DNA of 64,000 nucleotides from NCBI GenBank assembly GCA_036873755.1, contig JAVTVY010036970.1, positions 1 to 64,000 of the forward strand, given 5' to 3'. Positions 663 to 57,122 of this stretch are shown in pieces. Position numbers and translations under genes: made by a program. Positions within the stretch are counted from its first letter, which is position 1, and every line of letters starts with the position of its first letter. This DNA is from Hanleya hanleyi. Its lineage: Eukaryota; Mollusca; Polyplacophora; Lepidopleurida; Hanleyidae. The notes beneath the pieces were generated by a model. It was not told the origin of the DNA. It did no database searches and was given only the letters and a program-made list of their open reading frames with translations.

Positions 663-757
663 CCTCGTTACTGAAGGGATTGAAACACTCCAATATTGTC
701 ACACTGCATGATATCATTCATACCAAAGAGACGCTAACATTTGTTTTTGAATATGTG
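663..757 (+). CDS. CDK14: CDK14 exon E1 (N-lobe beta4-beta5 and hinge)
   Basis: The acceptor is ccttttcag and the donor gtg|gtaagt. The first two bases complete an Ala codon, so the preceding exon must end in phase 1 after the PFTAIRE helix (RE|A in the family). It encodes [13 protein letters not shown] then [24 protein letters not shown] is the stretch leading into the hinge, next to the gatekeeper residue. 95 bp, ending in phase 0. Confidence 0.93.
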
Positions 758-3700
758 GTAAGTCTAGTAATGTTTCATCGTGCATGCCTACAGCTCGACC
801 TATTAAAGTTCTCCGTGTATATTCTACTATGGTGTGAAATGTTGTTAAATGTCGTTAAATGTCATACTCATATGCTTTTTGACATCACAATTGAATTGAT
901 TGCCCCCTAGGAGTAAGCCTATACAATCACAATAATCACAAAGGAGATACACAGACGGCAGAAGTAACAATTCTTTCTCCATTCCCATTATGGAACTTTG
1001 GTTGTGGACTAAAAACAATAAATAATAAATCAAATGATAATCTTTTACAAAATGCAACTGTAAAGCCTTTATGCATACAGGTCTTTGTAATTTTTTTGAT
1101 GACATCGATGACATCGGTGTAATGATGGTGACATCGCTGTAATGTTGATGATATCGGTGTAATATTGGTGACATCGGTGTAATGTTGATGACATCGGTGC
1201 AATGTTGGTGACATCGCTGTAATGTTGGTGACATCGCTGTAATGTTGGTGACAGTGACATTACTGTAATGTTGGTGACATCATGGCAATGTTGGTGACAT
1301 CACTGTAATGTTGGCAGCATCACTGTAATGTTGGTGATATTGCGGCTATAGTGGTGACATCACTGTAATGTTGGTGACATTGGTTTAATGTTGATGACAT
1401 CGCTGCAATGTTGATGACATCTGTGTAATGTTGGTGACATCGCTCTAATGTTGGTGACATTACTGCAGTGTTGGTGACATCGCTGTAATGTTGGTGACAT
1501 CGCTGTAATGTTGGTGACATCACAGCAATGTTGGTGACATCTCTGTAATGTTGATGACATCACTGTAATGTTGGTGACATTACTGCAGTGTTGGTGAAAT
1601 TGCTGCAATGTTGGTGACACCAATGTAATGTTGGTGACATCGCTGTAATGTTGGTGACATCACAGTAATGTTGGTGACATCACTGTAATGTTGATGACAT
1701 CACTGTAATGTTGGTGATATTGCTGCAATGTTGGTGACATCACTGTAATGTTGGTGACATTGGTTCAATGTTGATGACATCGCTGCAATGTTGATGGCAT
1801 CGGTGTAATGTTGGTGACATTGCTCTAATGTTGGTGACATCGCTCTAATGTTGGTGCCATCGCTCTAATGTTGGTGACATCACTGTAATGTTGGTGACAT
1901 CGCTCTAATGTTGGTGACATCACTCTAATGTTGGTGACATTGCTGCAATGTTGGTGACATCACTGTAATGTTGGTGACATCACTGTAATGTTGGTGACAT
2001 CACTGTAATGTTGGTGATATTGCTGCAATGTTGGTGACATCACTGTAATGTTGGTGACATTGGTTTAATGTTGATATCACTGCAATGTTGGTGACATCAC
2101 TGTAATGTTGGTGACATTGGTTTAATGTTGATGATATCGCTGCAATGTTGATGACATCGGTGTAATATTGGTGACATCGCTCTAATGTTGGTGACATCGC
2201 TCTAATGTTGGTGACATCGCTGTAATGTTGGTGACATTGCTGTAATGTTGGTGACATCACTGTAATGTTGGTGACATCGCTGTAATGTTGGTGACATAGC
2301 TGTAATGTTGGTGACATCGCTGTAATGTTGGTGACATCGCTGTAATGTTGGTGACATCGCTGTAATGTTGGTGACACCGCTCTAATGTTGGTGACATCAC
2401 TGCAATGTTGGTGACATCGCTGTAATGTTGGTGACATTACTATAATGTTGGTGACATCGCTGCAATGTTGGTGACATCGCTCTAATGTTGGTGACATCGC
2501 TGTAATGTTGGTGACATAGCTGTAATGTTGGTGACATCGCTGTAATGTTGGTGACATCGCTGTAATGTTGGTGACATCGCTGTAATGTTGGTGACATAGC
2601 TGTAATGTTGGTGACATAACTGTAATGTTGGTGACATCGCTGTAATGTTGGTGACATAACTGTATTGTTGAATGTTATTTGATAGTTTCATTATCTACAT
2701 GTGAACATGCAGTCGATGTGGCCAGTTTGATATAATACATTGTTAGTTGTTATATGACGCTCACCTATCCTTTAATATCATTTCAGTGCTCAGATCTAAG
2801 TCAGTATTTAGAGAAGCATACAGGAGGACTGAATCCATTCAATGTAAAGGTGAGAGACCTCATACCCTACTTTTACTCAGTGGACATATCTTGTTCTTGG
2901 CAGATCAATAGACCCATTTTGTCGGTGATTATAAAGTGAGTAATCTCCCCTAAATAGATTAACGTAAACGTATAAGTGATGTCATGAAGTGCTTGAATCA
3001 AGAGGCACATATTGGCAGGTCAATAGACTACTTTGGCACATCAACGAATGCACATTCCAGGTCGCCTGATGATCGTGGATGATTTGACTGGTGTACGTTG
3101 GCCGTGTACTGTAACCAAGGTGACAGGTGTACATTGATCATGCACTGTAACTGAGATGACAGGTGTACGTTGACCATGCACTGTTACCGAGGTGGCAGGT
3201 GTACGTTGAACATGCACTGTAAATGAGGTGATAAGTGTACGTTGACCATGCACTGTAACTGGGGTAACAAGTGTACATTGACCATGCACTGTAACAGAGG
3301 TGACAGGTATACATTGACCATGCACTGTAACTGAGGTGATGGGTGTACATTGCCCATGCACTGTTACTGAGGTGATGGGTGTACATTGCCCATGCACTGT
3401 TACTAAGGTGACAGGTGTACATTGACCATGCACTGTAACCGAGGTGACAGGTACACATTGACCATGCATTATAACCGAGGTGACAGGTATACATTGACCA
3501 TGCACTGGAACTGAGGTGACAGGTATACATTGACCATGCACTGTTACGGAGGTAACAGGTATATGTTGACCATGCACTGTAACTGAGGTGACAGGTACAC
3601 ATTGACCATGCATTATAACCGAGGTGACAGGTATACATTGACCATGCACTGTAGCCGAGGTGACAGGTATACATTGACCATGCACTGTAACCGAGGTGAC

Positions 3701-6700
3701 AGGTATATGTTGACCATGCACTGTAACTGAGGTGACAGGTGTACGTTGACCATGCACTGTAACCGAGGTGACCGGTAAACATTGACCATGCCCTGTTACT
3801 GAGATGACCGGTGTACATTGATCATGCACTGTAACTGATGTGACTGGTGTACATTGACCATGCACTGTAACTGATGTGACGGGTATATATTGGCCATGCA
3901 CTATAACTGAGATGACAGGTATACATTGATCATGCACTGTTGCGGAGTTGACAGGTGTATATTGACAATGCACTGAACTGAGGTGACCGGTATACATTGT
4001 CCATGCACTGTAGCCGAGGTGACAGGTATACATTGACCGTACACTGTTACCAAGGTGACACGTGTATGCTGGCCATGCACTGTTACCGAATGATACACTA
4101 CACTAGCTCTTCAGAAGATGCCATCTCCGTAAAGGACCCCTGGATGAGTATTGATGGCCATTCCTATATGTCCAATCATAATTGCTATATTATCTAGACA
4201 TTTGGCAGTCTAAGTTCCAACTTCTTCAACTCCTTTGCGGGTTGGCGATCAGAGATACAAACAGCAATACCATTGGCTGATATGAGCTAGGTCACATGAC
4301 TCTTCACACTCAAGAATAATGTATTAATATGTTTATTTTACGCCCAGAGGCATTGTGGCAGCACAAATCTTGTGGTTTGAGAAAGTTCTCAATGGACAAA
4401 AAAGAACCTTATTTAATGTTGAGGTCAAAGGTCAAGGTAACTTAAGCTCAAAAAAAAAAAAAAAATGGAAAATTGTGTTGTTCCTAAATTCGGTTGAGGG
4501 AAGTGGATTTTTTTTCAAATTTCCCTTCTGCCTCAAAGTCATGGCAAGCAAGAAGCCTATTGGTTTTCAGGAATCTCTGCCCGTCTGCTCGTCCGTCTGT
4601 CTGTTCTCCAATTCTATGATGTGGAGCAGATTGTGATCAAAGCTAGGAGAAAAGAAAATCTCTCAGTTTTGGGACCAAAAGTTGAGGGCATACGAAATCC
4701 CACAGGCTCTTATTCATCATATGACTGTGTGCCTACATGCATGACATGTGACAGAGCCGTCACAATACCATCTTCTGTGGTGCTGCTTCTACACGTACAA
4801 ATAGCAAATGTATACTGTGGAAGATACACAGTAGGTTCTATATTAACAGTTTGGGGAAATGAGGGCTTTCCAATTTTGGAGGTAAAAAGTTGTTTCTCTT
4901 GAATAACTTTTAAAATGTAAACAAATTTTCATTTTTTTTGTCAATGGCGCATAAATTTATTGTTTTTCACACTGGTTTACGTGCTTTGAAGAAATTGTTT
5001 CGCATCTACTTCAGGAGATAGAAAACGGATTAATGTTTTTTTTCAAATTGCCATTTTAACATGTTCAAACAAGTTAAATCCTATCAATGGCAAAAGATGT
5101 TAACATGTGTAACTATATATCAATTTATATGCCATTTAGAAAAAAAAAATGCTAGTTTGTTAATATTTTTCTAAGTTATTCAAGAAAAATGACTTTTTGA
5201 CCTCCAAAATTGGAGAGCCCTCATTTCCCTGGCCTGATTAACATTGATTCATACATCTGTCCAAGTTAAAGTTAACTTTGTCAAAGTTGTCATTGTACTA
5301 GAACAATGCAATAACAGTTAACTTTGTTTTGTGTTTTACAGTTATTTTTGTTCCAGTTATTAAGAGGCCTGGCCTATATACACAGGTTTAGAATATTACA
5401 CAGGTGGGTGTGACTGCCATTTCTATAGTAACCTATGATTGACAGATCAGATATGATAGTCATATAGATGAAAATATATCAGTTGTATTATTCCTTCAAT
5501 GACTGTCAGATATGGAGCTGTAATTTGAGGTCTTCCCCGAAGCCGCTGAATAGCTGTCTCTTGGGAATCTCTATAGATTTGAACGGTCCCCACCATCTCG
5601 ACGAGAAGGTTCACAATGATATTCAATGATCTTGTACTTCGAATGATTGCACATTTCAGCGAGTTCCAGCATCTCACTAACTTACTCTCCGCACACAAAA
5701 TACTATATTCATTTCAATTACATCACATTATTAAATTAAAGCTAAAGCAAAGAATTGCTTTGTCAGAATGTTTGTAGATTACAGCGTAATATACTATATA
5801 GATGACATGTTTATTTTCTGACCATTTTTTTGTTGTTCTTTTCAGAGATCTTAAACCTCAGAATTTACTTATTAGTGATGTAGGAGAATTGAAATTAGCT
5901 GATTTTGGTAAGTCCGCTATTCAATCGTGTATCAAATCTGTAAGGACCGATACACTGGCTTGGTTAATTACCCAAACGAGTTCTGGATATAAGTAGATCA
6001 AGGGGTTTCCTCTAAATAAACCAGACCAATGAATGCGCTACTGACTAAGCTAGTTGATTAGGCCAATCCGCTGCGAGGTATGAGATGTGACAGGTTTGAA
6101 TTTCATCACGGCCCAAACTGCTTTGATGTCAAGCTGAAATCGACGTCAGACATCATGAAAAACGGTCCATACAGACCCACCTGGAACCTACACTACATGT
6201 AATACTAAACCATAAAAATTAATCACTGTACTGTTGTCCACTTCAAAACATATACAACAATGGATTTTTGTAGAAATTACAAGGCATCATGGGACTTCTT
6301 CCAGTTTTGTAGTTGCCTCGCCACAATTGAAACATATTGACATGACAGTAATTTCATTTCGATTGCAGGGCTCCCACCAGCCCTATTTTTCCCTATATTT
6401 TCTGCTCCCCCCTATTTTTCCCTATATTTTCTCAAATTTGACCGATTTTGCCCTATTATTCCTATATTTTCAGGATTATTCGTGCTTTTTGCGCAGCTCT
6501 GACCTTGTATTTATTGTGGTATATATATATACGAATAGTTGGCTTATTTAAACCCTCCAAAATAACAATGCCACCAAGTCGGAATGGTCCAAACTAAATT
6601 GTACTGTGTTTTTTCTTTGCTACCTTGTCCCACTGATGAGTACAGGTTGTTTTTGGATAAAAACACTGATCTTATGAGATTGTAATTAATAAGTAATTAT

Positions 6701-9700: not shown

Positions 9701-12700
9701 CTCATATAGCGACGCTTCTGGAGGTCAAAGGTCAAATTTAAGGTCACATCCTTTTCGGTCATTAAAGTGTTCATTAATATTAGGAGTATCAATGCCGTAG
9801 CTTATTTCCTTATAAATAATGGGTTTTGAAAAACATTAAAAGGGAGATAACTATTTCTTCTTGTTACGTAACAATTCAAAAATATAACTACAGCATGGCC
9901 ATATTTAACACTTAGCAACCATCAACTTTCCTTTAGATATGTTCTTTATTTTTGGCTGTACACAGACGACACGAAAAACAGCACCAGGGGAGAGAACTCT
10001 AAAACCGCTTCCGTGACCTACTTATTTTATTGGTTATTTTGTTGGGTGTATCTGCAAACTTTCACATTTCAAATTTCAGCTGCATGGCCTTATGCGTTTG
10101 GTCAGTATTCACAAAATGGTGTTTTTATCAAAAAAGCCCATAGCGCAATAGGTCAAGGTCAAGGTCAAAATTGAACACCTGTACCAGAAACTTCAGCCCG
10201 GTATCTACAAATGTCCCAAATATCTAAGCTGTATATGAAACCGTTTAGCCGTTATCGCGAAAACAGAATAATAATAATAATCCGTAGAATAACAAAAGGT
10301 CTATCCATTGGAAATGGAAAGACCTAATAATATAATAAAGAGAATCAAGACGGCAATAAATCTGTTTTATCAATATTGTTAATGGGGTCTGATTAAATAA
10401 AAATAATTTCTAAATAGTAAAATGAAAACTGATGCACTGATGGAAGATTCTGGCAATTTCACAGACGACATTCGACTAAATGAAGTTCGCGGGTCCGGGA
10501 AAATAACGTTTTTGGTAAAACAAATACAGTAAAAGGTCATGGAAAAGTCATGGAATTTGTCAAAAAAAGTCATGGAAAGTCATAGAATTTCATAACCCTG
10601 AAAGAGTAAGAACCCTGAATCAGTAAGCACGCTAAAGCAGCTCATCAGGCCAATCTGCAGTGAGGTTTGAGTTTTGACTGGTTTGAATTTCATCGCCGGC
10701 GATTTTTTTGATTTTTTTTTTTTTTTTTTTTTACACAATGACACAGCCGAGGGTGAATACATTCAACGCTCTCTACCTTTGAAGTTAGGCTGAAATCATC
10801 ATCGAGTGTCAAAGCGAAAACTGCAGGCTTCAGATATTGACACGCTAATTCAAAACAACCACTGGAGATGAAATGTTCGAGATTGTATAATAGACACAAC
10901 GACTCGAGAACTCATCCGAATCACCAAAAAGGTGTGCGAGGATTTAGGGATTACCTGTTCCCAGCTCATGCATTTGTATAAACCGATTAAGAATTCTCTT
11001 TCTGAAAGAAGTTCCCTGATGTTATCCATCACAAGTCTTGAGAAATGTGTAAAAAATAAATTCTTCTGTAATTTTATGTATATTATGAAGAGAAAGAATG
11101 TTAACCAGTAATTATGTGTAACTGTTTGTATTTCAGGGCTGGCCCGTGCTAAGTCAGTACCTAGTCACACATATTCACACGAGGTCGTCACTTTATGGTA
11201 TCGACCTCCAGACGTCCTACTGGGCTCCACAAACTACTCCACCTCACTAGATATGTGGTGAGTACATTCAACCCTTCCTCCCACACAAACCACTCCACCT
11301 CACTAGATATGTGGTTAGTACATTCAGCCCTTCCCCCCACACAAACTACTCCACCTCACTATTTATGTGGTGAGTACATTCAACATTCCCTCCACAAAAA
11401 CTATTCCACCTCACTAGATTTGTGGTGAGTACATTCAACCCTTCCCCCACACAAATTACTTCACCTCACTAGATATGTGGTGAATACATTCAACCCTCTC
11501 TCCACACAAACTACTCCACCTCACTAGATATGTGGTGAGTACATTCAACCCTCCCCCCACACAAACAACTCCACCTCACTAGATTTGTGATGAGTACATT
11601 CAACCCTCACTCCAAACAAACTACTCCACTTTACTAGACATGTTTTAAGTACATTCAACCCTCCCCCCACACAAACTACTCCACCTCACCAGATATGTGG
11701 TGAGTACATTCAACCCTTCCCCGAAACTCAACTACTTCCCCTCACTAGATATGTGGTGAATACATTCAACCCTCCCCCACACAACTACTCCACCTCACCA
11801 GATATTGGTGAGTACATTCAACTCGCCCATCATACAAACTACTTCACCTCACTAGATACGTGGTGAGTACATTCAACCCTCCCCCCACACAAACAACTCC
11901 ACCTCACTAGATTTTGTGGTGAATACATTCAACCCTCACTCCAAACAAACTACTCCACCTCACTAGACCTGTTTTGAGTACATTCAACCCTCCCCCCACA
12001 CAAACTACTCCACCTCACTAGATATGTGGTGAGTACATTCAACCCTCCCTCCACACAAACTACTTCACCTCATTAGATATGTGGTGAGTACATTCAACCC
12101 TCCCCCACACAAACCACTCCACCTCACTAGATGTGTGGTGAGTACATTCAATCCTTCCTCCCATACAAACCACTCCACCTCACTAGATATGTGGTTAGTA
12201 CATTCAACCCTTCCCCCCACACAAACTACGCCACCTCACTATTTATGTGGTGAGTACATTCAACATTCCCTCCACAAAAACAACTCTGCCTCACTAGATT
12301 TGTGGTGAGTACATTCACCCCTCCCTCCCTCCACACAAACTACTCCACCTTACTAGATATGTGGTGAGTACTACTCCATCTCACTACATTCAATCCTCCC
12401 TCCACACAAACTACTCCACCTCACTAGATATGTGGTGAGTTCATTCAACTCTCCCCCAATACAAACTACTCCACTTCACTAGATTTGTGGTGAGTACATT
12501 CAACCCTTCCTCCCTCCACACAAACTACTCCACCTTACTAGATATGTGGTGAGTACTACTCCACCTCACTACATTCAACCCTCCCACCACACAAACTACT
12601 CCACCTCACTAGATATGTGGTGAGTACATTCAACTCTCCCCCAATACAAACTACTCCACTTCACTAGATATGAGGTGAGTACATTCATCCCACACAAAAT

Positions 12701-15700
12701 AATCCACCTCACTAGATATGTGGTGAATACATTCAACCCTCCTCCCACACAAACTACTCCACCTCACCAGATATGTGGTGAGTACATTCAACTCTCCCCC
12801 AATACAAACTACTCCACTTCACCAGATATGTGGTGAGTACATTCAACTCACCTCCCACACAAACTACTCCACCTCACTAGATATGTGGTGAGTACATTCA
12901 ACTCTCCCCCAATACAAACTACTCCACTTAGCTAGATATGTGGTGAGTACTTTCATCTCACACAAACAGGGGTAGAAATTTTCAAAAACTGGTACCTGTC
13001 TCTGGAGACAGGTAGGTATTTGTTTTACCTGTCTCCTTCAATGTCTTACCTGAACACTATTCCATTCAGATTTTGGGAAATAAAAGTTAAAAAAATTGAA
13101 ATGAATAAAACAACGACTTATGTTTTCTTTAAACACATTTACTCAACGATAAGATCTGAGAATTCCCAATTACATTACCAGGGAGACAGGTCAGGGCCTT
13201 TATTAACCAGCCAAAGAGTTGTGGCAGATTGCAGCAGAGCATCCATCACTGGTTAAAGTCTTCAGAGCAGTAACTAATTGAGTACCAATTGGTACTCAAC
13301 TGGTTACTGCTCGGGGGACTTTTTATGAGGTCCGTGTGCATCAACTAGCCTTCGTGGACGTTTTGCTGCAGTCCACCACAGCCTCATGGCAGGTTCAGGG
13401 TTGAAGTCTGATACAGATACATCACTGAGAGCTAACATCATCAGGTCATTTAATGGCCCCTGTTGGAGTTTAGACCTCCAATCTGATTTTACACGCTTCA
13501 TGAGGCTAAATCCCCTCTCTACAGCTGATGTTGAGTACATTAGGACCAGAAGAATTCTCACTAACCCCAAAATATTCTTCATCTCGGGGGGATTCAGATT
13601 TCTTTCTTAAAATCTTGGGCCAGAAAGTTTTCACAGTTCTACCAGAAGTTTTATTTGTTGATTTCAGTGTGACTCTCACAAACTCCCATAAAATGACTCT
13701 TTCCTCTTCTATTTTATCTGGTTCGTAACCCTTAGATGCTAACAGATCTGAAAAGTGTGAGCTCAGTTTGTTAAGTTCTTCTCTGCCATAATCTGACAAA
13801 TCATCGTCATCTGACTCCGGCAAACGACTGACATCAAATATTGAAAATAGTGACATGTGACTGTCCCCAATGTCTCCATCATCTAACGGACCAAAGCGTT
13901 CTGTCATACAGTTTTTACCCCTCGGCCAACTTTGGCCTAGGGGTATTGTCGTCATCATGTACGGCTGTCCGTACGTCCGTACGTACGTCCGTCCGTCCGT
14001 TACCGCGATATCTACAGAACCGTTTCATGCATGGCAACCAAACTTGTTACATCTATTTATCTTCATGTAAATCAGAAGCCTATCGAAAATGAGTCATCTC
14101 GGACAATATTTTGCAGAGTTATGCCCCTTTTTACAAATAAAAATCCATTTATGATTTGTTATTGTGATAATTTCAGAACTGTTTCATATACAACATTCTA
14201 ACGTGATACAGTTGTTTCTCTTGACCTGAACTAGATGCCTATCGAAAATGAGTCGTGTCAGAAAGTATTTTGCAGGGTTGTGCCCCTTGTCTAATAAAAT
14301 CCGTTACCGCGATATCTACAGAACCGTTTCATGCATGGCAACCAAACTTGTTACATCTATTTATCTTCACGTAAATCAGAAGCCTATCGAAAAGGAGTCA
14401 TCTCGGACAATATTTTGCAGAGTTATGCCCCTTTTTACAAATAAAAATCCATTTATGATTTATTGTGATAATTTCAGAACTGTTCCATATACAACATCCT
14501 AACGTGATACAGTTGTTTCTCTTGACCTGAACTAGATGCCTATCGAAAATGAGTCGTGTCAGAAAGTATTTTGCAGAGTTATGCCCCTTCCACTAATTCC
14601 TATGTTAAGTTTGCATATAATTTCTATATCATGTTTGTATACCATCACATTTATTTATTGATTGGATGACTGATTTATTGATTTATTCTCTTACACAATG
14701 CGAAGAATGCCTGCAAATCTGTTTTGAAAATGACACTAGATGCCTATCAAAAATGAGTCGTGTCAGAAAGTATGCCCCTTGTCTAACAAAATCCACTAAT
14801 TCCAATGTTAAGTTTGCATATTATTTCTATATCATGTTAGTATACTATCACATTTATTTACTGATTGGATGACTGATTTATTGATTTATTTTCTTAGACA
14901 ATGCAAAGAATGCTTGCAAATCTGTTTTGAAAATGACATACATGTACCTTTTTTTTTTTTTTATAAAAAAGTACACTTACTGTACCAGGGGTAAATATTT
15001 CTTCCCACAAGCCAATCAATTGGTAGAGACACGCTTACATTATAATAGCTGGGGTTCAGAGCCGAGGGGTTTCGATAGCGCAGCTTCATGTTCAAGTTCT
15101 CTACTAATTTTTCTCCCTGTTTTCTGACCATATCATTGACATCAACATGCCTTGCCCCAGTGCATTTTTGCTTCAACTGCACATCTCGAAATATGCTATT
15201 TTCAATGTTTTTGGACTTAAAGTCTGCAATGGCAGTTTCACAGTTGAAATTTGACAGTTTTTGTTTTGCCCGCTTGATCGTTGTAACTAGAGTATCAATA
15301 CTGGTATCATCTGCTTGAAGCAGGCAACTTAGCGTCGAAACAATAGCCAACAAAACTTTTAGAATAGCAAAACAAAATAAAACAATGTTCTCATCCAAAA
15401 GTTTGTCTCTAAGTCCTAGAGCCTTGGCTCTGGTTTCCGTTCTTTGTGTTTCATCCTTGTTGCACTCATTAAGTTGGGCTATGTTTGTTGCGTAATTTCT
15501 ATCTAAAGCAGACAAGGCTCTCTCCCTATGTGCCACCCAACGTGTGCCTTTCGGTGTTGGATGAACCAGAGGTTTGATCCCCAACAGATCAGAAGTTTGT
15601 GTGAGCATCCTGGACTGTAGGCTGCTGTTGTCATAGAAATGGTAAAGTCCATCAAGAAGATCGTGAGCTTCTGTTTGCAAAGTAATGTCCTTGGCTGCAT

Positions 15701-18700
15701 CTTTAAATGCAAGCTCCAGACGATGGTTTGCACAGTGGAAGTTCAACAACCAGGGAATTTTATTTCGAACTTCTTTGTACATGTTCTTCATGACACTAGG
15801 ACCATCTGTGGCCAACTGAACACAGTTATGTTCTACATCGATACCAAGATCGGATAAAGTATGAAAGAAGCATTCAGATAGTTCAGCTGCTCTAGCTCTG
15901 CCATCTATACTGACAATCGTGACAAAGTCAATGTGCGATTCATAGTTCTCATCCAAATAAGACGCGTAGAAAATTTCTTCTTCCAGATTTGCTGAGTCAG
16001 TTGATCCATCTACTGCCACAGATATAAATTGTGAAGCATTTATTTTCTGCAGTTTTTTCTCACGTTCAGCCTCCCCTATAAACTGAACAAACACCTTAGC
16101 TTCTTTGTCCGAGTTGTAATGTTTCCTGATGTGCTCATCTCCAGCATTTTTAGATTGAAGTTCCAACAGTTTTGGAAATTCTGTAAAACTCTTCTCGTGT
16201 TTGCCTATAAAATATGCAGTGGTAAATAGTTTGTTCATGAGATCCACATCATGCTTCTCCATGTTCATTACAGCACGTAATATTGCCTGCCCTGTAGGTG
16301 GTAACTGTTGATTAAAGTTGGCAGTATGGCATGATTTGTGGTCGGTGCTGTCTTCGTGCGATCGGACGTTTTCAATTCTCATAGATTGGCAACCTTCCAC
16401 AAACTTATTTTTTGAATTTCTGCTAAATTCTTTACAATATGTACAGTACGTAGTGTTCGTTTATTCATCATGCGTCAGCCACGGGCGGTTCACTTTCCAG
16501 TTGTCGGAGAATCGAAAACTACGAATTTTAGATTTCTTCGACTTCGTTGGTTCAGGCGATGTATCGCCGTTGTTGTCACTTTCATTTGGCACCGTATTTG
16601 GTGAATACGGTACATCTTTTCGCTTTAAAAACTGAAACATTTCCAGTTGATCGTCAGAATCGATTCAATAAAGCACCGGAAATGAACTGTAAATCTTCTG
16701 TGCAGCGGTGCGGTGCTGCATCCACGCTTTGATCCTGTTTATTGTTATCACCGCTGTGCGGAGAGTGGCACAAAAGGGTGCAGAATTTATTCCCCCCGGA
16801 ACATCGGCTGTTCACCGATCAGACACGATGTACGTTATTCTAAACAACAACTCTACACACATGCTTCGGGACTTTGCCTACCTGTCGCAAGCGACAGGTA
16901 ACAAAATAATTTACCTGTCGCCAGCAAAATCTACCTGTCGGCGACAGGTAGACAGGCGTTAATTTCGATCCCTGCACAAACTAATCCACCTCACTAGATA
17001 TGTGGTGAATACATTCAACCCGCCTCCCACACAAACTACATTTGTACTCCACCTCACCAGATATGTGGTGAGTACATTCAACTCACCTGCCATACAAACT
17101 ATTCCACCTCACTAGATATGTGGCGGGTACATTCAACCCTCCCTCCACACAAGATACTCCACCTCACTAGATATGAGGTGAGTACATTCCATCCACACAA
17201 ACTGCTCCAATATTGTATGATTGTAAGTGTATTTCAGGGGTGTAGGTTTATATAATTGTATGTGTATTTCAGTACTGTAGGTTTTATGTGTATTTCAGTA
17301 GTGTAGGTTGTATGTGTATTTCAGGGGGGTAGGTGGTATGTGTATTGTAGGAGTGTAGGTTGTATGTGTATTGTATGTGTATTTCAGGGGTGTAGGTTGT
17401 ATGTGTGTTGTAAATGTATTTCAGGCACGTGTAAAGTTGAATTTGTATTTTATGTGTATTTCAGGGGTGTAGGTTGTATATTCACTGAGATGATTTCTGG
17501 GTTGGCTACATTCCCTGGTATGAAGGATGCACATGACCAACTAGACAAGATATTCAGGGTAAGTTACATGAAAGTTGCACTTTCGCCCTTCCCGATTTCT
17601 TTACCCATTCTTTTGATCTGAGAGCTCAAACTGAAACATACATCTTTCCATTTTGAATGGTACAGTCTATTATTTTGAAATATTTTTTAATGGATTGAGA
17701 TGTTTTTGTTTTTTTCTTTTAATTAGTCCACAACTGACTCCAGTGTAAAAAGTAAATCCTAACTGACTAGGGATTTCTCACTTTTTCTCATATTCCATAC
17801 TTGACAATAATCCTGATGACTGTTTGGATTGGCAGGTTTTAGGCACTCCAACAGAACGCAGATGGGAGGGAGTAACCCGATATCCTCAGTATGACCCCAG
17901 TAAGTCCCTGATTACCACCTGCTCATCATGTCATAGAAACTGTTCACAAAGATTGCTTGTATATGTTGTGATTCACAGTCTATGAACTCATTTTTCTGTA
18001 TACGCTATTTCTTCTAAGTTTTTGAACAGCATTTTCAGACTTTGAAGCAGAAAAAATCCATCTTTATGTCAACTGAGGCTAAATACTGTGGCGTGGATAT
18101 GTATCCCAAGAACTGCAAAGATAGCTAGTGAAACTTGTAGAATGTTTGCAGAATATGTCTCCACAGTAGCCTGAAGTTGAATTTTGCCGTCTGAATAATT
18201 AGAAGAAATAGGGTAATTATAAGAAAAACTGTACGCATCTTTCACCTCTCTTGTGTGCAGACGAACACTTGTGTCAATCAAAATTTGTAAAGGCTGAACA
18301 CGTTTCTTGGCACAATGCAATTAGAAATTGTTTGGGTGCTATCAAATTCTTAACAATGGCAAAATGATACCATAGCCAAACCTACTGAAAACTTAACAAT
18401 GGCAGAATGATACCATAGTCAGACCTACTGAAAACTTAACAATGGCAGAATGATACCATAGCCAAACCTACTGAAAACTTAACAATGGCAGAATGATACC
18501 ATAGTCAGACCTACTGAAAACTTAACAATGGCAGAATGATACCATAGCCAGACCTACTGAAAACTTAACAATGGCAGAATTATACCATAGCCAGGCCTAC
18601 TGAAAACTTAACAATGGCAGAATGATACCATAGCCAGACCTACTGAAAACTTAACAATAGCAGAATGATATCATAGCCAGACCTACTGAAACTTAACAAT

Positions 18701-21700
18701 GGCAGAATGATACAATAGCCAGACCTACTGAAAACATAACAATGGTAGAATAATACCATAGCCAGACCCACTGAAAACATAACAATGGCAGAATGATACC
18801 ATAGCCAGACCTACTGAAAACTTAACAATGGCAGAATGATACAATAGCCAGACCTACTGAAAACATAACAATGGTAGAATAATACCATAGCCAGACCTAC
18901 TGAAAACTTAACAATGGCAGAGTGATACAATAGCCAGACCTACTGAAAACTTAACAATGGCAGAATGATACCATAGCCAGACCTACTGAAAACATAACAA
19001 TGGTAGAATAATACGCTATTTCTTCTAAGTTTTTGAACAGCATTTTCAGACTTTGAAGCAGAAAAAATCCATCTTTATGTCAACTGAGGCTAAATACTGT
19101 GGCGTGGATATGTATCCCAAGAACTGCAAAGATAGCTAGTGAAACTTGTAGAATGTTTGCAGAATATATCTCCACAGTAGCCTGAAGTTGAATTTTGCCG
19201 TCTGAATAATTAGAAGAAATAGGGTAATTATAAGAAAAACTGTACGCATCTTTCACCTCTCTTGTGTGCAGACGAACACTTGTGTCAATCAAAATTTGTA
19301 AAGGCTGAACACGTTTCTTGGCACAATGCAATTAGAAATTGTTTGGGTGCTATCAAATTCTTAACAATGGCAAAATGATACCATAGCCAAACCTACTGAA
19401 AACTTAACAATGGCAGAATGATACCATAGTCAGACCTACTGAAAACTTAACAATGGCAGAATGATACCATAGCCAAACCTACTGAAAACTTAACAATGGC
19501 AGAATGATACCATAGTCAGACCTACTGAAAACTTAACAATGGCAGAATGATACCATAGCCAGACCTACTGAAAACTTAACAATGGCAGAATTATACCATA
19601 GCCAGGCCTACTGAAAACTTAACAATGGCAGAATGATACCATAGCCAGACCTACTGAAAACTTAACAATAGCAGAATGATATCATAGCCAGACCTACTGA
19701 AACTTAACAATGGCAGAATGATACAATAGCCAGACCTACTGAAAACATAACAATGGTAGAATAATACCATAGCCAGACCCACTGAAAACATAACAATGGC
19801 AGAATGATACCATAGCCAGACCTACTGAAAACTTAACAATGGCAGAATGATACAATAGCCAGACCTACTGAAAACATAACAATGGTAGAATAATACCATA
19901 GCCAGACCTACTGAAAACTTAACAATGGCAGAGTGATACAATAGCCAGACCTACTGAAAACTTAACAATGGCAGAATAATACCATAGCCAGACCTACTGA
20001 AAACATAACAATGGTAGAATAATACCATAGCCAGACCTACTGAAAACTTAACAATGGCAGAATGATACAATAGCCAGACCTACTGAAAACATAACAATGG
20101 TAGAATAATACCATAACCAGACCTACTGAAAACTTCACAATGGCAGAATGATGCCATAGCCAGACCTACTGAAAACTTAACAATGGCAGAATGATACAAT
20201 AGCCAGACCTACTGAAAACTTAACAATGGCAGAATGATACCATAGCCAGACCTACTGAAAACTTAACAATGGCATAATGATATAATAGCCAGACCTACTG
20301 AAAACTTCACAATGGCAGAATGATGCCATAGCCAGACCTGCTGAAAACTTAACAATGGCAGAATGATACCATAGCCAGACCTACTGAAAACTTAACAAAA
20401 TGGCAGAATGATACCACAGCCAGACCTACTGAAAACTTAACAATGGCAGAATGATACCATAGCCAGACCTACTGAAAACTTAACAAAATGGCAGAATGAT
20501 ACCACAGCCAGACCTACTGAAAACTTAACAAGGGCAGAATGATACAATAGCCAGACCTACTGAAAACTTAATAATAGCAGAATGATACCATAGCCAGACC
20601 TACTGAAAACTTAACAAAATGGCAGAATGATACCACAGCCAGACCTACTGAAAACTTAACAATGGCAGAATGATACAATAGCCAGACCTACTGAAAACTT
20701 AATAGTCGCAGAATGATACCACAGCCAGACCTACTGAAAACATAACAATGGTAGAATAATACCATAACCAGACCTACTGAAAACTTAACAATGGCAGAAT
20801 GATACCATAGCCAGACCTACTGAAAACTTAATAATAGCAGAATGATACCACAGCCAGACCTACTGAAAACTTAATAGTCGCAGAAAGATACCATAGCCAG
20901 ACCTACTGAAAACTTAACGGTGGCAGAATGATACCATAGCCAGACCTACTGAAAACTTAACAATGGCAGAATGATACCATAGCCGGACCTACTGAAAACT
21001 TAACAATGGCAGAATGATACCACAGCCAGACCCACTGAAAGTTAACAGTGGCAGAATGATACCACAGCCAAACCTACTGAAAACGTAACAATGGCAGAAT
21101 GATATCATAGCTGTAGTATTTTGTGGTTGACTGTAATTTGTTGTTATTTTACAGGCAGGTTTGGGGTGTACCCTCCACAAAACCTTATGACTGTGATCCC
21201 AAAGATTTCCTTCATGCCATTGGCTGAGCTGTTAGCCAAACAGCTTCTTCAGGTAAACTTCATAGTCTGTGATTGGTGGTTAGAACATCCACCTCCTTGC
21301 AGGGTTCCCAGCCACTCGAGAAAATCAGCGAAATCAGAAAAAATGATTTTCCAGTTTTCCAGTCAGGAAAAACTCAGGGAGTTTGAGAAAAATACCCAAC
21401 ATCAGGGAAAAGTGAGGGAAATTGAGTAGCAAGAGAGGAGTCACATGTAGTGGCTGGCTATGTTGGCTTTTTAGTGCACCCTAGGGATGCACATTTTCCT
21501 TCTTAACACCTCATTAAGGGTTTATCTGGCATAGCTTGAACTCTTATCAGGACTAATTCTTTCATAACTGCATGCAAGTTACCTATGCATCGTACTGTTC
21601 CAATTGCTACAACCCTGTCATGAAGGAAATATTTCTATGGGAATTTGGGAAATTAATCAGGGAAAAATCAGAGAATTTTGTTTCCATGAAAAGCTGGGAA

Positions 21701-34164: not shown

Positions 34165-35925
34165 TATATTAAAATTAAAAATCGACCAGAGGTCCATGTC
34201 CCCCGCTAGCAGCACCAGTTATGGTGTAATCCACCATAACTGGCGCTGCTGCTGCGGGGGCCATGGACCTCTATGGTCGATTTTTTTGGTCAATGATATC
34301 TCCTATCATTGATGAAAAGTATGATTTGAAAATGGAGATATCGCTGATGAGCTTAACATAATCTAATACAGTGGATGGCACCCATATTGGATTATGCACA
34401 TCCATAAAACATAATACCAACTGTCCTCTCACCAATGCCCATGCACTCCCCAAGTTTGAAGTAGATTGGTTGAATCATTCTAGAGTTATTGTCCAGACAA
34501 GATCTAAATGCTGAAAATCTAAGATGACTGACGGTGGCCATCTTGGATTACACAGGTAACTGAAAAGCAATGATAACTGTCCTCTCACCGATGTGAAGCC
34601 AAACTGCAAGTTTGAAGTCGATCAGTTGAATTATTCTAGAGTTGTTGTCCAGACAACTGCTTAAAATGCAACATAATCCAATATCGGTGGTAGATGGCAG
34701 CCAAATTTTGACTATGCTCGTTCATGAAACACAATCCTAACCGAGATCTCACCAAGGTCAAGGGACTCCCCCAAGTTTGAAGTTGATCGGTTAAATCGTT
34801 CACGAGTTATTGTCCGGACAAGAAAATCTAAGATCCAACTGCTTATAATCCAATATGGCTGATGGCGGCCATATTGGATTATGCACATTGCTGAAAAACA
34901 ATCCCAACTGTCCTCTCACCGATGTCAAGGCACTCCCCAAGTTTGAAGTAGATCAGTTGAATTGTACTCCAGTTATTGTCCAGACAAGATCAAACTGCTT
35001 AAAATCCAATGAAATCCAATATGGCTGATGGTGGCCATATTGGATTAAGCACGTCCTTGAAAAACAATCCTAATCCTCCTCTCAACAATGTCAAGTCACT
35101 CCCCACATATGAAGTAGATCGGTTGAATCGTTCTCGAGTTATTGTCCGGACAAGATACAACTGCTTATAATCCAATATGGCTGACGGCGGCCATATTAGA
35201 TTACGCACATTGCTGAAAAACAATCCCAACCGTCCTCTCACCAATGTCAAGGCACACCCCAAGTTTGAAGTTGATCGGATAAATCATTCACGCGTTATTG
35301 TCCGGACAAGAAAATCTCATCTTCATTTTATCCAGCCAATTTCTACGTTCCCACTTCGAACCTGCCTTGATTTATCTGACCCCTTCAGCGTTCAAAATCC
35401 GAGGTGTAAATTTCACCAGCTAATGACAGAAGAACCAATCAGAACGTACACATCGATTGCGAGTGAAGTCACATAGAGTGACATCATCCTCTATTAATGG
35501 CGCCCTTCCTCCTAATATGGTGCCCACTAATTAGGTCAGCCAATCAATAAAGCTCTTGTGCGACCCATTTCGAATTTCAAATGTTTTCGAGGTCAGTGAC
35601 ATTATTTGAACATTGAAGGGGTCCAGATATATCAAGGGAAGTTCGAAGTGGGAACGTAGAAATTGGCTGGATAAAATGAAGATGGAAAATCTAAGATCCA
35701 ACTGCTTGTAATCCAAAATGGCTTACGGCGGCCATATAGGATTATGCACATTGCTGAAAAACACTCTCCATCGTCATCTCACCAATGTCAAGGCACACCC
35801 CAAGTTTGAAGTTGATCGGTTAAATCGTTCACGAGTTACTGTCCGGACAAGAAAATCTTACGGAACTACGGACACCGGTGTTTCTAAGTCCCCCACCTAC
35901 TAAGTAGCGGGGGACAATAATGTGT
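34165..35925. repeat. Composite repeat: hairpin head plus about 160-bp tandem units, copy 1
   Basis: The head is a palindrome (atcgaccagaggtccatgtc ... ggacctctatggtcgat, 34180-34281). It is followed by about seven units containing aagtttgaagtcgatcggtt, gttattgtccggacaaga and a small palindrome around tggcggccatattgga. The tail ends in tagcgggggacaataatg. The same architecture occurs at 49498-50740. A MITE at 35318-35684 interrupts it. Confidence 0.8.
35318..35684. mobile_element. MITE (CATCTTCAT ends) with 8-bp target duplication, copy 2
   Basis: Same family as 33712-34044: catcttcattttatccagcc at the left and its complement at the right. It is flanked by gaaaatct (35310-35317 and 35685-35692). 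Length 367 bp. It is inserted inside a unit of the composite repeat, so it is younger than that array. Confidence 0.92.
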
Positions 35926-40800: not shown

Positions 40801-40811
40801 GTTCTACTGGC

Positions 40812-40905: not shown

Positions 40906-41074
40906 GCTCTATGGGTGTAGTGAATTTAATGTTTACCCGATTCAGCGGATTTATCAATTTGTATTTTCGTCCACAATTTCACGTGTACATGGTGAAAGGC
41001 TATCAAACCAATAGTAGGATGAATCCGACATAAACCCTACATTACAGCTAAATGATTGGATAACATAGAAAAAG

Positions 41075-41180: not shown

Positions 41181-41239
41181 ACGGGTGGTGGTTCTCTCCA
41201 GTTACTCCGGCTTCCTTCACCAACCAAACTGACCAGGGT

Positions 41240-44562: not shown

Positions 44563-44596
44563 ATGTGAATGTAAATGAAATGAAAACATTTTAAAA

Positions 44597-44800
44597 GACT
44601 ATTTCTTCTAATTAGTCAGACGGCAAAACTTAACTTTAGGCAACTGTAGAGAGAAATTCTGCTAACATTCTATCAACTCACTAGCTATCTTTTCCGTTCT
44701 TGGGATAAATACCATATCCATGCCACAGTTTTTACCCTCAGTTGATATAAAGATGCATTTCTAAAAATGCTGTTAGAAAAATTAGACGAAATAGGGTAGA
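44597..44800. mobile_element. MITE (TATTTCTTCTAA ends), copy 3
   Basis: Related to 18000-18220 in inverted orientation: ctatttcttctaattagtca at the left, attagacgaaatagggta at the right, and a shared tcactagctatctt core. The most diverged of the four copies. Confidence 0.75.
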
Positions 44801-45851: not shown

Positions 45852-46068
45852 GATACCTTATTTCTTCTAATCATTCAGATGACAGAACTTCAGGCTACTG
45901 TGTAAAGAAATTCTGCAAACATTCTACAAATTTCACTAGCTATCTTTGCAGTTCTTCGGATAAATAACATATCCATGCCACAGTATTTAGCCTTAGTTGA
46001 CATAAAGATGTTTTTTTCTGCTTCCAAGTTTAAAAATACTGTTCGAAAATGAGAAGAAATAGGGTATC
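45852..46068. mobile_element. MITE (TATTTCTTCTAA ends), copy 4
   Basis: The ends gataccttatttcttctaa and gagaagaaatagggtatc are inverted. The core cactagctatctttgcagtt is the complement of that in copies 1 and 2. Confidence 0.82.
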
Positions 46069-46107
46069 CTGTTCTGATACAGATATAATAATCACACCCC
46101 CTTGTCT

Positions 46108-46138
46108 ATCAATTCAATTCAATTCAATTCAATTCAAC
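46108..46138. repeat. Pentanucleotide microsatellite (attca)n
   Basis: Six perfect copies of attca. Confidence 0.9.
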
Positions 46139-47688: not shown

Positions 47689-47871
47689 TCAGTGTCTGTC
47701 ATAGCTGGCCAGTGATTTTGTCAAGGAGGCACTTCTGTACATGTTTTCTGAATGCATGCTGACAGCGGAGTCCGTGTCACTACTGTTAGATCGGACTTCG
47801 GACGAGGAGGATGGGTGGCGCCACCTGCTGGTGATACTGACTGGGGACGAGGCCTGGTAATCTACATTATA
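47689..47871 (-). CDS. CTNNAL1: Catulin terminal exon C6
   Basis: The acceptor is ctcattccag; the stop TGA is at 47689-47691; 61 codons. It encodes YNVDYQASSPVSITSRWRHP, a Ser-rich stretch and SDTDSAVSMHSENMYRSASL, ending in SYDRH. SDTDSAVSMHS is the conserved catulin-like tail. The exon also contains a CTCF-core-like string. Confidence 0.9.
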   Translation of the reverse strand, partial: YNVDYQASSPVSITSRWRHPSSSSEVRSNSSDTDSAVSMHSENMYRSASLTKSLASYDRH

Positions 47872-50800
47872 CTGGAATGAGAACCAAAGAAAAAAGATAA
47901 ATAATAATGGAGATATTGAAGGTGAATGGGGAAGGAATGTTGGAATTTCCTGACAATTAGCGAAGACTTTGTGAAACAAGCCCAATTCAGGCTGGAGCTG
48001 GTTACAAGAGTTACCTACCTTGGTAGCACAGATAAAGCATGTCGTGACGACCTTGGCCACAACGTTCATCAGATTCTTTGTCTCCTGTATGGCACTATCC
48101 ACCTGGTAATAACAGGAAACACAAAATTACACATTACCGTATGGCTGGTATTAACAAGAAAAACAAAATACACATTACACTATGACACTGTCCACCTGGT
48201 ATTATTAACAGGAAACACAAAATTACACATTACAGTATGGCTGGTATTAACAGGAAAAACAAAATACACATTACACTATGACACTGTCCACCTGGTATTA
48301 TTAACAGGAAACACAAAATTACACATTACAGTATGGCTGGTATTAACAGAAAAAACAAAATACACATTACACTATGACACTATCCACCTGGTATTATTAA
48401 CAGGAAACACAAAATTACACATTACAGTATGGCTGGTATTAACAGGAAAAACAAAATACACATTACACTATGACACTGTCCACCTGGTATTATTAACAGG
48501 AAACACAATATTACACATTACAGTATGGCTGGTATTAACAGGAAAAACAAAATACACATTACACTATGACACTGTCCACCTGGTATTATTAACAGGAAAC
48601 ACAAAATTACACATTATATTTTGAAACATTTACACAGGGTACAAAGTACAGTTCGTCAAATAAGTTTTTAGTGATATACTAAATGGAAAAGATGATGCGC
48701 CAACCCCTCAACCCATTAATAGTTGACACTATGATGGGATAGGTGTAGGAGTTATGGCCCTTGAGTAAAACAGAGTTATGACCCTTGAGTATAACAGAGT
48801 TATGACCCTTGAGTAAAACAGAGTTATGACCCTTGAGTATAACAGAGTTATGACCCTTGAGTATAACAGAGTTATGACCCTTGAGTAAAACAGAGTTATG
48901 ACCCTTGAGTATAACAGAGTTATGACCCTTGAACACACTTATTGGTATGAACCAATCATTGGCAAGGCTTTGGTGTAAGACCTTCCATTGAAAAGGTAAT
49001 ATCCTGGACAAAAGACTGACAATACAAATTGCAGCAGATGCCTTGTCAATTATATTTCCAAATCGTTGCCCAATCATTGCTGGGCAATCTCAAGTTTTGG
49101 ATTTCGACAAGTGATGTACAACTCGCGCTGCGCGCTCGTTGTACATCATTCGTCTCGAGCTGACAAATCATGATGTCCCACTCTATAACATGCAATAATT
49201 GTATACCCTCGCATCCCAGATTTTTCCATCAATTATGTATACTTTTCCTTGAAAGCTAAGACATTAAGTTCGATAAAAGAGGTATTACTTGAGACCACAC
49301 TCATGTTTGATGAGCTGCACACATTTTTGTGAATTGTGCAAATTGACCATAACTTGGCTAGGTTATAATTTTTATAACTTCTGTAGTTGGTCGCCTGATT
49401 GATCACTCTCATCATCCATCAATAGAGAATGTACGAACCTTGTTAGGAGTGGCAGCTTTCCCAAAGGTAAGAGCCTTCAATATTCTACCATAATAAATAT
49501 CGACCATAGAGATGCACGTCCCCTGGCATTGCACCCACCATATCTGATGCTGCTGCTGGGGACGTGGACCGATATGATTGATTTACTTTGGTCGATGATA
49601 TCCCATATCATTGATTAAGAGTATGATTTTGAAAATGGAGATCTGTCTGATGAGCCATACTTCCCACAAGTCAATCAGTTCAATAGTTCTCGAGTTATTG
49701 TCCGGATAACTTCTGACAGTTATCTTGCATTACACAGGTAACTGAAAAGCAATCACAACTATCCTCTCACTCCATGATGTCAATTCACTGTCCAAGTTTC
49801 AACCTTGATCAGTTCAATAGTTCTAAAGTTATAAGTCAGAGAAGGAATGTGTCACAATTCAACCGCTGACAATGCACGATGTCTGATGGCAGCCATCTTG
49901 GATTACACAGGTAACTGACCCAACCACCTAAAATTCAAGACGGCTGACAGTGGCCATCTTGGATTATACAGGTAATTGGAAGGCAATCTCAACAGTCCTC
50001 TCACCGATGTCAAGCCACTCTCTAAGCTTGAAGTCGATCGGTTCAATCGTTGGTCGAGTTACTGTCCGGATAAGATCAAACTGCTGAAATCCAAAATGGC
50101 TGGCAGCCATCTTAGAGTACACAGGTAACTGAAAAGCATGACAACCGTCCTATCACGGATGTCAAGACACTCTTCAAATTTGAGTTCAATAGTTCTCGAG
50201 ATTTGAGTCAGACAAGAAATGTGTAAAGATCCGAAAATACAAGATGGCTGATTGCAGCCATCTTGGATTATACAGGTATTTAACTGAAAAGCAATCCCAA
50301 CTGTTCTCTCACCGATGTCAAGGCACTCTCCAAGATCAAAAGTTACCAAGTTATTGGTCTGACAAAAAATGTGTCAAGATCCAACTGCCGACAATCTAAG
50401 GTGGTTGATGACGGCCATCTTGGATTACACAGGTAACTGAAAAGCACTCCCAACAGTCCTCTCACCAATGTCAAGACACTCTCCAAGTTTGAAGTCGATC
50501 GGCTGAATAGTTCTAGATTTATTGATCAGAGAAGAAATGTGTACTGCTGAATCCAAGATGGCTGATTTAGGCCATCTTGGATTACGCAGGTAACTGGAAA
50601 GCAATCCCAACCATCCTATCACTGATGTCAAGACACTGTGCAAGTTTGAAGTCGATCGGTTCAATGGTTCTCGAGTTATTGGTCAAACAAGAAATGTGTA
50701 CCATAACGGGAAAATATTTACGCGGCGGGGGACAATTAAAATAATAATAATAAATTATTGATTAATTAGTGTACAAACCTTGTTAAAAGTGGCAGCTTTC

Positions 50801-56800: not shown

Positions 56801-57024
56801 CCTAAAAATATGATTCATGGCAAACACTGCTGACTTACCCCTGGTCTAGGCAAAGAGAGGTAGACTTGTTTCTCCATTTTCCCCTGAACAACATCATTAA
56901 TGTCCTTGACTAGAATAGATAGTTCATTAATCTGTGACTCCCAGGCATCAGCAAACACATCCAAATTCTCCTTGGCGATTTTACTGACTGGGTATTGGGC
57001 CAGAGACTGGGCAGCATTTAATGT
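47689..57024 (-). CDS. CTNNAL1: Alpha-catulin, C-terminal six exons (CTNNAL1 orthologue)
   Basis: Exons in transcript order on the - strand: 57024-56839, 54992-54942, 51883-51623, 50901-50779, 48102-48019 and 47871-47689. All have GT-AG borders, all are in phase 0 and are multiples of 3, giving 295 residues plus stop. The sequence carries SLPRPGKHGTTSKALRPVKL, LGLEMKLITSEMDAETDKW, NDIVKRAKNMSSMAFSMYLF and TRGEGPLRTTQDLFTQAEYF. These are hallmarks of the vinculin/alpha-catenin superfamily tail as found in alpha-catulin, a cytoskeletal scaffold linked to dystrobrevin and Rho-GEF signalling (family knowledge). Alpha-catenin is less likely because of the RGEGPLRTTQDLFTQAE and GKAATFNKV motifs. 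N-terminal exons are not found up to 64000. Confidence 0.92.
47820..47831 (-). promoter_or_regulatory. CTCF-like core motif in coding exon (candidate)
   Basis: gccacctgctgg is a 12/12 match to the reverse complement of CCASYAGRKGGC. It lies inside exon C6 and faces the + strand match at 39639. Motif match only. Confidence 0.3.
48019..48102 (-). CDS. CTNNAL1: Catulin penultimate exon C5
   Basis: The acceptor is gttattaccag and the donor aag|gtaggt; 28 codons, VDSAIQETKNLMNVVAKVVT then TCFICATK. The 147-bp intron that follows (47872-48018) is a multiple of 3 and has no in-frame stop. Confidence 0.93.
48103..48615 (-). repeat. 96-bp array of C5 acceptor plus exon-start copies (five decoys)
   Basis: On the - strand each unit ends aataccag followed by gtggacagtgtcata, a copy of the C5 junction (gtggatagtgccata). 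The junction phrase ccacctgg starts at 48099 (true) and then at 48192, 48288, 48384, 48480 and 48576, with steps of 93, 96, 96, 96 and 96. A second, weaker ttaataccag lies mid-unit, so the unit is itself a dimer. The 232-codon plus-strand frame arises because 96 is a multiple of 3. Confidence 0.93.
48752..48937. repeat. 24-bp minisatellite (8 copies)
   Basis: The unit is ttatgacccttgagtaaaac plus agag, with an a/t variant at gtaaaac/gtataac. In the C4-C5 intron. It is open in several frames because of its period. Confidence 0.93.
49437..49487 (-). repeat. Duplicated C4 exon end and splice donor
   Basis: On the - strand, gctttgggaaagctgccact-like exon sequence, an aacaag exon end and gttcgtac intron start reproduce the C4 donor junction at 50779 with few differences. 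It lies immediately next to the composite repeat at 49498-50740, which is therefore flanked by two copies of one exon-intron border. Confidence 0.85.
49498..50740. repeat. Composite repeat: hairpin head plus about 155-bp units, copy 2
   Basis: The head tcgaccatagagatgcacgt ... ggacgtggaccgatatgat resembles 34180-34281. It is followed by units containing aagtttgaagtcgatcggtt, gttattgtccgga, and ggccatcttggattacacag with a matching palindrome. The tail ends gcgggggacaattaaaat. Second copy of the 34165-35925 family. Confidence 0.8.
50779..50901 (-). CDS. CTNNAL1: Catulin exon C4
   Basis: The acceptor is ctgtattcag and the donor aag|gtttgt; 41 codons: VPAGTPKEDMLIHLERIPSL, CQSLQVTLKAPTFGKAATFN and K. 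The donor gtttgtac is a weak match to consensus. A second copy of this donor lies at 49437. Confidence 0.92.
51141..51470 (-). repeat. Near-complete tRNA-derived SINE
   Basis: On the - strand: a head with tactgggttcgatcccaggc (B box), a body with tggttcgctcggtgtcagta, atgtgactgggtggggtgtc and tacggcatgatatttcagtg, then cgtcgtgatatagctgaaa, gcgacgttaaaccctattca and ctcactcac. The best-preserved SINE in the window, in the C3-C4 intron. Confidence 0.8.
51623..51883 (-). CDS. CTNNAL1: Catulin exon C3
   Basis: The acceptor is tgtgttacag and the donor aag|gtaaga; 87 codons, the largest coding block of the gene here. Begins EQARIAKLGLEMKLITSEMD and contains KRAKNMSSMAFSMYLFTRGE and DLFTQAEYFSEEGRKLYKTV. 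It corresponds to the C-terminal helical-bundle region. Confidence 0.95.
52408..52840 (-). pseudogene. Frameshifted coding relic of unknown family
   Basis: On the - strand three frames join into one plausible protein: CHQEDEYRRSSTDQGLVG, then (shift near 52757) DELATIFEVYKKIIEDTSVC with LPAADNVKLFNREGQTVGRR, then (shift near 52633) ELVSIELFGRYLRFKLIVDE, PGYGPQQPSAIVNAFELMQK and MRSPGY before a TAG. The composition looks like a real protein. At least two frameshifts and the position inside a catulin intron suggest a processed or decayed copy. I do not recognise the family. Confidence 0.5.
52841..54160. other. Intron sequence, nothing recognised
   Basis: AT-rich unique-looking sequence in the C2-C3 intron with several poly-T runs and no supported exon. 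Confidence 0.4.
54160..54907. repeat. Tandem repeat element with gacggacgg end (about 190-bp unit, 3 copies)
   Basis: Three units start near gatgggcatagataacagtg (54231, 54424 and 54622) and contain catagccatctgaaaatcta and gctctcaccaaagtttggtc. After the last unit comes a gacggacggacg run and an end gggctgaggggtaaaaatg. That end is, inverted, similar to the left end of the nested repeat at 13912. Confidence 0.8.
54942..54992 (-). CDS. CTNNAL1: Catulin exon C2 (51 bp)
   Basis: The acceptor is cccttacag and the donor gag|gtcagt; 17 codons, KHGTTSKALRPVKLDAE, joining PRPG of C1 to EQARIAK of C3. Too short to stand out as an open frame. The conserved KHGT...RPVKLDAE motif supports it. Confidence 0.92.
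55254..55979. mobile_element. Foldback element, copy 2 (cttaaggg ends)
   Basis: cttaaggatactgagccctc at the left and tgggtcagtacccttaag at the right. The interior matches 32564-33220 (caacctacaggtttacagt, ttttttgaaaatagcattta). Slightly longer than copy 1. In the C1-C2 intron. Confidence 0.85.
56180..56450. repeat. Imperfect inverted repeat
   Basis: tcagctgatcagctactgg and aatttcagtttaccctatct (56170-56218) recur inverted as agatagggcaaactgagatt and gcagctgatcagctgaagt (56395-56443). ggagaatattttgaactgg pairs with ccaattcaaaatattctcc. A probable 275-bp foldback MITE. Confidence 0.7.
56839..57024 (-). CDS. CTNNAL1: Catulin exon C1 (first visible)
   Basis: The acceptor is taccctcag or atcctcag and the donor ggg|gtaagt; 62 codons: TLNAAQSLAQYPVSKIAKEN, LDVFADAWESQINELSILVK and DINDVVQGKMEKQVYLSLPR. 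It begins in phase 0. Its acceptor and first 36-40 bases are duplicated 78 bp upstream (toward higher coordinates). Confidence 0.93.
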
Positions 57025-57122
57025 CTGAGGATAACAACAACAGAAACATTGGTGATTTTACTGTCCTGGGTATTGGGCCAGAGACTGGGCAGCATTTAAT
57101 GTCTGAGGGTAACAACAACAGA
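57025..57122 (-). repeat. 78-bp duplication of the C1 acceptor plus exon start
   Basis: ggtattgggccagagactgg starts at 56991 in the exon and again at 57069. The copy carries its own cccagaca-type junction (ctcag|acattaaatgctgc) and a gttgttgttac tract. It diverges where the exon continues (tcctgggt instead of tgactgggt). Confidence 0.92.

Follow-up and report, generated by a model that had tools for sequence, protein, structure and literature searches.

Introduction

Minisatellites that straddle exon boundaries have been described in amphioxus, where they were named 'mirages' (PMC3087553, PMC3902484), and our search of openly accessible literature met the term in amphioxus papers only. In the accessible parts of these reports the arrays occur in the globin genes BflGb6 and BflGb9, with Adh3 cited as a further example, and their unit lengths are 10-72 and 150-160 bp; AG/GT is retained in many copies, not all, the copies are homogenised within clusters and reverse transcription PCR (RT-PCR) gave normal splicing (PMC3087553). 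Lancelet PGBD5 contains 60- and 108-bp repeats that include 5' and 3' splice sites, with Adh and troponin C cited alongside (PMC3902484). Elsewhere, a border-crossing tandem duplication in potato RdRp produced a new intron, after Rogers 1989 as cited (PMC4974935), and intron 3 of an abalone TSSK1-like gene carries a length-variable 27-bp minisatellite array (PMC6905558). Our literature search, which covered openly accessible papers and few subscription ones, found no mollusc case of junction minisatellites, and the part of it aimed at chitons found no report of them. Here we analyse arrays of this type at the exon-intron borders of two genes, CDK14 and catulin, in the chiton Hanleya hanleyi. 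Both genes lie within bases 1-64000 of contig C32325 (JAVTVY010036970.1, 158,066 bp), the stretch that we refer to as the window.

The first-pass annotation of this DNA knew of no standard name for such arrays, yet they fit the amphioxus mirages, now in another phylum and with large arrays. The units are tandem and join an exon edge to a splice signal (five of the six window cases), they are of minisatellite size and vary by gene (26-96 bp in the window, 39 bp in upstream catulin and 31 bp at a kinase locus, L056), and both 5' and 3' borders are affected. As in amphioxus, AG/GT persists in many copies, not all (31/35 at CDK14 exon E5, 3/4 extra copies at exon E9), and there is turnover within an array. 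The differences are the mollusc host, array sizes of 35 and 75 copies against the 3 or 6 reported for BflGb6, and the evidence that bears on splicing, which was RT-PCR there and is coding sense here. With the PGBD5 repeats the chiton arrays share splice sites within the repeat, and differ in phylum and in the few copies described for PGBD5. The potato case has in common a duplication across an intron-exon border; it gave rise to a new intron, whereas here existing introns are lengthened and no new one was seen, the intron positions of relatives not having been compared. The abalone array is likewise intronic, variable in length and of like unit size, although an exon edge goes unmentioned in the accessible part of that report.

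We conclude that the junction arrays probably (we would put it at roughly 70%) reflect frequent, untargeted tandem duplication that is tolerated at exon edges.

Results

All 30 exon-intron borders counted by the first-pass annotation, 19 in CDK14 and 11 in catulin, could be placed by exact sequence contexts. CDK14 has ten exons on the + strand from 663 to ~24100 and catulin six on the - strand from 57024 to ~47700, and the exons of each gene, once joined, are open in one frame. The nearest listed proteins are both from the chiton Liolophura sinensis: a cyclin-dependent kinase 14-like protein (P0001, 89% identity over 288 aa) and an alpha-catulin-like protein (P0121, 93% identity). The two chiton proteins of the window are colinear with these counterparts, and tblastn with P0001 and P0121 finds the exons again; the P0121 search found no further catulin exons within the window. 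At six of the 30 borders there are local copies in which exon edge and splice signal are joined, as had been claimed, and self-BLAST together with copy listing confirmed each of them. Self-BLAST on the same strand returns all six at E<=0.01, which places them beyond chance similarity. Copies cover five of the 30 borders when 10 bases are required on each side, and six when 5 bases are required. The junction copies are recurrent and of several kinds and ages, with units of 26 to 96 bp that carry about 10-53 exon bases. Tandem copies are found at one donor (E5) and four acceptors (E6, E9, C5 and C1); the sixth case, the catulin C4 donor, is dispersed.

The largest window case is the intron between CDK14 exons E5 and E6. 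Exon E5 lies at 11137-11257 (+ strand; exact borders, tblastn with P0001), and the array of its donor holds 31 copies at 11228-12966 and four more at 16975-17205 (both + strand; Tandem Repeats Finder (TRF) and copy listing). The total of 35, genuine donor included, agrees with the earlier figure of about 35. Each 55-bp unit combines the last 30 bases of the coding exon with GTGAGT and the opening bases of the intron. The array is divided by an insert of 4,008 bp (12967-16974), which we infer to be hAT-like from its ends (CAGGGG...CCCTG) and from the zinc finger PF25431 in an open reading frame at 14961-16460 (- strand). A target repeat matching at 7/8 bases, judged by eye, flanks this insert. 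One open reading frame of the window, compared with solved structures, gave no match. Nearly adjoining the donor array is the array of the E6 acceptor (17213-17474, + strand; units of 26-37 bp; TRF and copy listing), which runs up to exon E6 (17465-17558, + strand; exact contexts). It contains seven copies of TTTCAG, genuine included, the number noted before, and one further degenerate copy. The 6,207-bp intron is made up of 1,940 bp of donor array, 252 bp of acceptor array, the 4,008-bp insert and 7 bp of other sequence.

Inside the E5 array a multi-unit block has itself been duplicated, with 147/154 positions matching, as expected under unequal exchange or slippage. Turnover or homogenisation within an array was thus seen at E5, the sole array tested. 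A 201-bp CDK14 probe, searched against the 2.48-Gb assembly, gave 16 matches, and among the matches listed all were at its own locus on C32325. This search covered the CDK14 unit alone among the junction units, and it bears out the earlier view that the arrays are not one transposon family.

Smaller cases are present at the other four borders. Exon E9 (22778-22868) has four extra acceptor copies, spaced 69-80 bp apart and diverged, at 22463-22803 (+ strand; self-BLAST, copy listing); CCCCAG is kept in three of them and the best BLAST identity is 76%. The acceptor of catulin exon C5 (48019-48102, - strand; exact contexts) has an array with a 96-bp unit at 48088-48627 (- strand; TRF, self-BLAST, copy listing), in which five extra border copies with 97% matches are accompanied by five secondary acceptor copies that lack the exon edge. 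Judged by the matches at C5 and E9, the arrays appear to differ in age. At exon C1 (57024-56839) the acceptor has a single 78-bp tandem duplicate (56972-57126, - strand; TRF, copy listing) that carries ~53 exon bases. The numbers of copies given previously for these three acceptors (four, five and one) were all recovered. The single copy noted for the C4 donor was recovered too, but it is not tandem: it (49430-49481, - strand; self-BLAST, copy listing), whose exon-like part ends at 49439, is 1,340 bp into the intron that follows exon C4 (50901-50779) and is therefore dispersed. At the window borders the arrays lengthen existing introns, as the first-pass annotation held.

Decay and reading frames bear on whether the extra copies are neutral. 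In the E5 array GT is retained in 31/35 copies and the complete GTGAGT in 24/35; at the level of conservation seen in the exonic columns, 30.2 and 22.6 would be expected. Conservation is 0.937 for the splice columns and 0.930 for the exonic columns, so the splice columns are neither specially preserved nor specially lost. When the first donor is connected to the last acceptor, the conserved protein results, and it matches P0001 without insertion. Translation past the first E5 donor runs into an in-frame stop, and so does translation begun at any of 20 decoy acceptors (six at E6, three at E9, ten at C5 and one at C1; the set leaves out the C4 decoy). Use of a decoy would therefore truncate the message. 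Coding sense and homology together suggest that only the exon-proximal splice sites are used.

We also surveyed two held-out sets, comprising 19 upstream catulin borders on C32325 beyond the window and 39 kinase borders elsewhere, and these contained four further border cases (2/19 and 2/39). The catulin borders come from ten more exons placed on the contig with P0121. Copied borders in this set are the donor at 87023 and the acceptor at 81058. The donor has 75 border copies (<=4 errors, genuine included), and most of its 39-bp unit is exon sequence; at the acceptor the array copies include the exon start. The 39-bp donor array is interrupted at 86388-86913 by an insert whose ends, by eye, are inverted (L008). 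Array edges also lie 9, 12 and 20 bases from the catulin acceptors at 87201, 75859 and 81058. Local copies cover 20% of intronic points in upstream catulin and none of the exon middles.

The kinase set covers 39 borders at 22 loci. Its exons were taken from a Pfam Pkinase search in which many matches held the entire domain in one exon, and partial matches were therefore picked by hand. From 20 exons we kept 35 borders at 19 loci, dropping as ambiguous the whole of L050, the donors of L047 and L048 and the acceptor of L057. Four borders were added (both of L038, with L025 and L020), and L022, L024, L031, L032, L037 and L041 were inspected and left unused. The borders are consensus splice sites near the match end, set without spliced alignment. 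At ±10 bases one of the 39 has a copy, the L056 donor (contig C4719, 1573-1914), where an array of 31 bp x 11 crosses the exon border. At ±5 bases there is one more, the L061 donor (contig C38908, 1565-1660), whose copy carries exon sequence and adjoins a kinase exon that we take, from its motif, to be CDK1/2-like. At the kinase loci copies cover 13.9% of non-exonic points (8,488/61,157), not all of them proven introns, and 13/4,655 exon-middle points (0.3%). Over all sets 10/88 borders have copies at ±5 bases.

Are splice borders preferred? The first-pass annotation had proposed that duplications are preferentially seeded across them, or alternatively that selection tolerates or favours the copies there. 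Beyond what it recorded, 36-39% of intronic points in CDK14 and catulin likewise have a local copy, and several large arrays in the window cross no border. Per base, copies are rarer at borders (5/30 at ±10) than at intronic points and commoner than in exon middles (1-4.5%). The order repeats in each set, reading intronic points, borders and exon middles in turn: 36-39%, 5-6 of 30 and 1-4.5% in the window; 20%, 2 of 19 and 0 in held-out catulin; 13.9%, 1 of 39 and 0.3% in the kinases. This is the order expected if a slight overlap with the exon is harmless and a mid-exon copy is not. Rotating the window borders along the genes gave a mean of 10.9 copied borders against the five observed among 30 (P(null<=5)=0.05). 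At the intronic rate ~20.5 of the 88 borders in all sets should be copied and eight are; in the independent sets ~9.2 are expected among 58 and three are found, the L061 copy being counted only at ±5 bases. Borders within one gene are not independent, and the BLAST settings differed, with E<=1e-3 on 3-kb loci for the kinases and E<=1e-2 on longer sequence for the window and upstream catulin.

Counting repeat families gives a different answer, and these results weigh against untargeted duplication. In the window 6/17 BLAST families cross a border where 1.46 are expected (P=0.0016), as do 5/14 hand-listed families (0.55 expected, P=9.5e-5), or 5/16 once two long-unit families are added (1.07 expected, P=0.0017), and 4/23 TRF arrays (1.19 expected, P=0.023). 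The independent sets point in the same direction, though not significantly, with 4/35 BLAST families (1.51 expected, P=0.06) and 2/43 TRF arrays (1.08 expected, P=0.29). Pooling the three sets gives 10/52 BLAST families (2.96 expected, P=0.0005) and 6/66 TRF arrays (2.27 expected, P=0.021), although the pool contains the window, itself picked for its junction copies. A further point on the same side is that splice-site use was judged from coding sense, not transcripts. The three nulls therefore disagree, with a deficit per base, a strong excess for families listed by hand and a weaker excess for automatic ones. Per event, an excess of twofold to threefold at borders is possible, and each set leans the same way. 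Such an excess could be inflated by the choice of window, by exon-derived halves of copies decaying less quickly or by introns that were originally short. Preferential seeding at junctions is thus not shown, with borders below intronic points per base and per-family P values of 0.06 and 0.29 in the independent sets. The alternative of tolerance by selection fits the near absence of copies from exon middles (1-4.5%, 0 and 13/4,655).

The window arrays that cross no border served as comparison cases in two instances, 20 bp x 78 at 1109-2670 and 43 bp x 64 at 18349-21111; the others are at 3085-4083, 23250-23422 and 48749-48932 (all by TRF and self-BLAST). A ~155-bp repeat family with a AAGATGGCTGCC-like core is present at 34374-35317 and 49668-50701, apparently on opposite strands, and its occurrence at two places marks it as a dispersed repeat, not a junction repeat.

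Discussion

The observations can be accommodated by a sequence of events in which targeting of splice sites would be unnecessary. The genome would often make local tandem duplications, and by chance some of these would span an intron edge, copying the splice site together with ~10-53 exon bases. Splicing would stay at the copy beside the intact exon, which is the first donor or the last acceptor, so that the mRNA would be unchanged and the extra copies would become neutral intron. These neutral copies could then multiply through unequal exchange or slippage and the intron would grow, while duplications in mid-exon would be purged by selection.

A different explanation would have tandem duplications arise preferentially at splice borders, where co-transcriptional breaks or R-loops, for instance, could start them. 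Arguments for this are the excess per event, seen both in the window and when all sets are pooled, the three catulin acceptors that have an array edge 9, 12 or 20 bases away, and the E5-E6 intron, in which arrays and insert leave 7 bp. In the independent sets alone, however, the excess is 4 against 1.51 (P=0.06) or 2 against 1.08 (P=0.29), borders fall below intronic points per base, and possible biases favour an excess, namely a chosen window, short ancestral introns and slower decay of exon halves that keeps old copies detectable. We therefore consider preferred birth unlikely, and equally doubtful its corollary that junction-crossing duplications, at two to three times the number predicted from their size, make borders hot spots of repeat birth from whose edges introns such as E5-E6 mainly grow.

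Much less probable is that selection maintains the decoy sites for a function such as slower splicing or the production of non-coding isoforms. The stops met past the first E5 donor and from all 20 decoy acceptors tried would suit this idea, but any intron sequence is expected to hold stops, and the splice columns are no better preserved than the exonic ones. Assembly or read errors are a natural concern, as long arrays are difficult to assemble and ours were judged from the assembly without reads; yet the units are non-identical, the hAT-like insert divides one array and like cases occur on other contigs, and we think an artefact slightly more improbable still. We give the least credence to an introner-like element, mobile and intron-making, having carried splice-site-bearing sequence to the borders. 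Dispersion is indeed seen in other window repeats, one family lying at both 34.4-35.8 kb and 49.7-50.7 kb, but each junction unit copies its own exon edge and, unlike introner-like elements, the CDK14 unit, the sole unit searched genome-wide, is at its own locus and not at unrelated genes among the matches listed. Untargeted duplication, tolerated at exon edges, remains our preferred account of the arrays.

The presence of mirages at 10/88 borders would suggest that they are no lancelet oddity and may form where tandem duplications are frequent. They illustrate how an intron can grow at its edges with the message presumably unchanged, they create ready-made cryptic splice sites, and they provide raw material for intron gain. 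For gene finders they are a warning of false exon edges. The possible per-event excess turns junction hot spots into an idea that can be tested in any genome rich in repeats.
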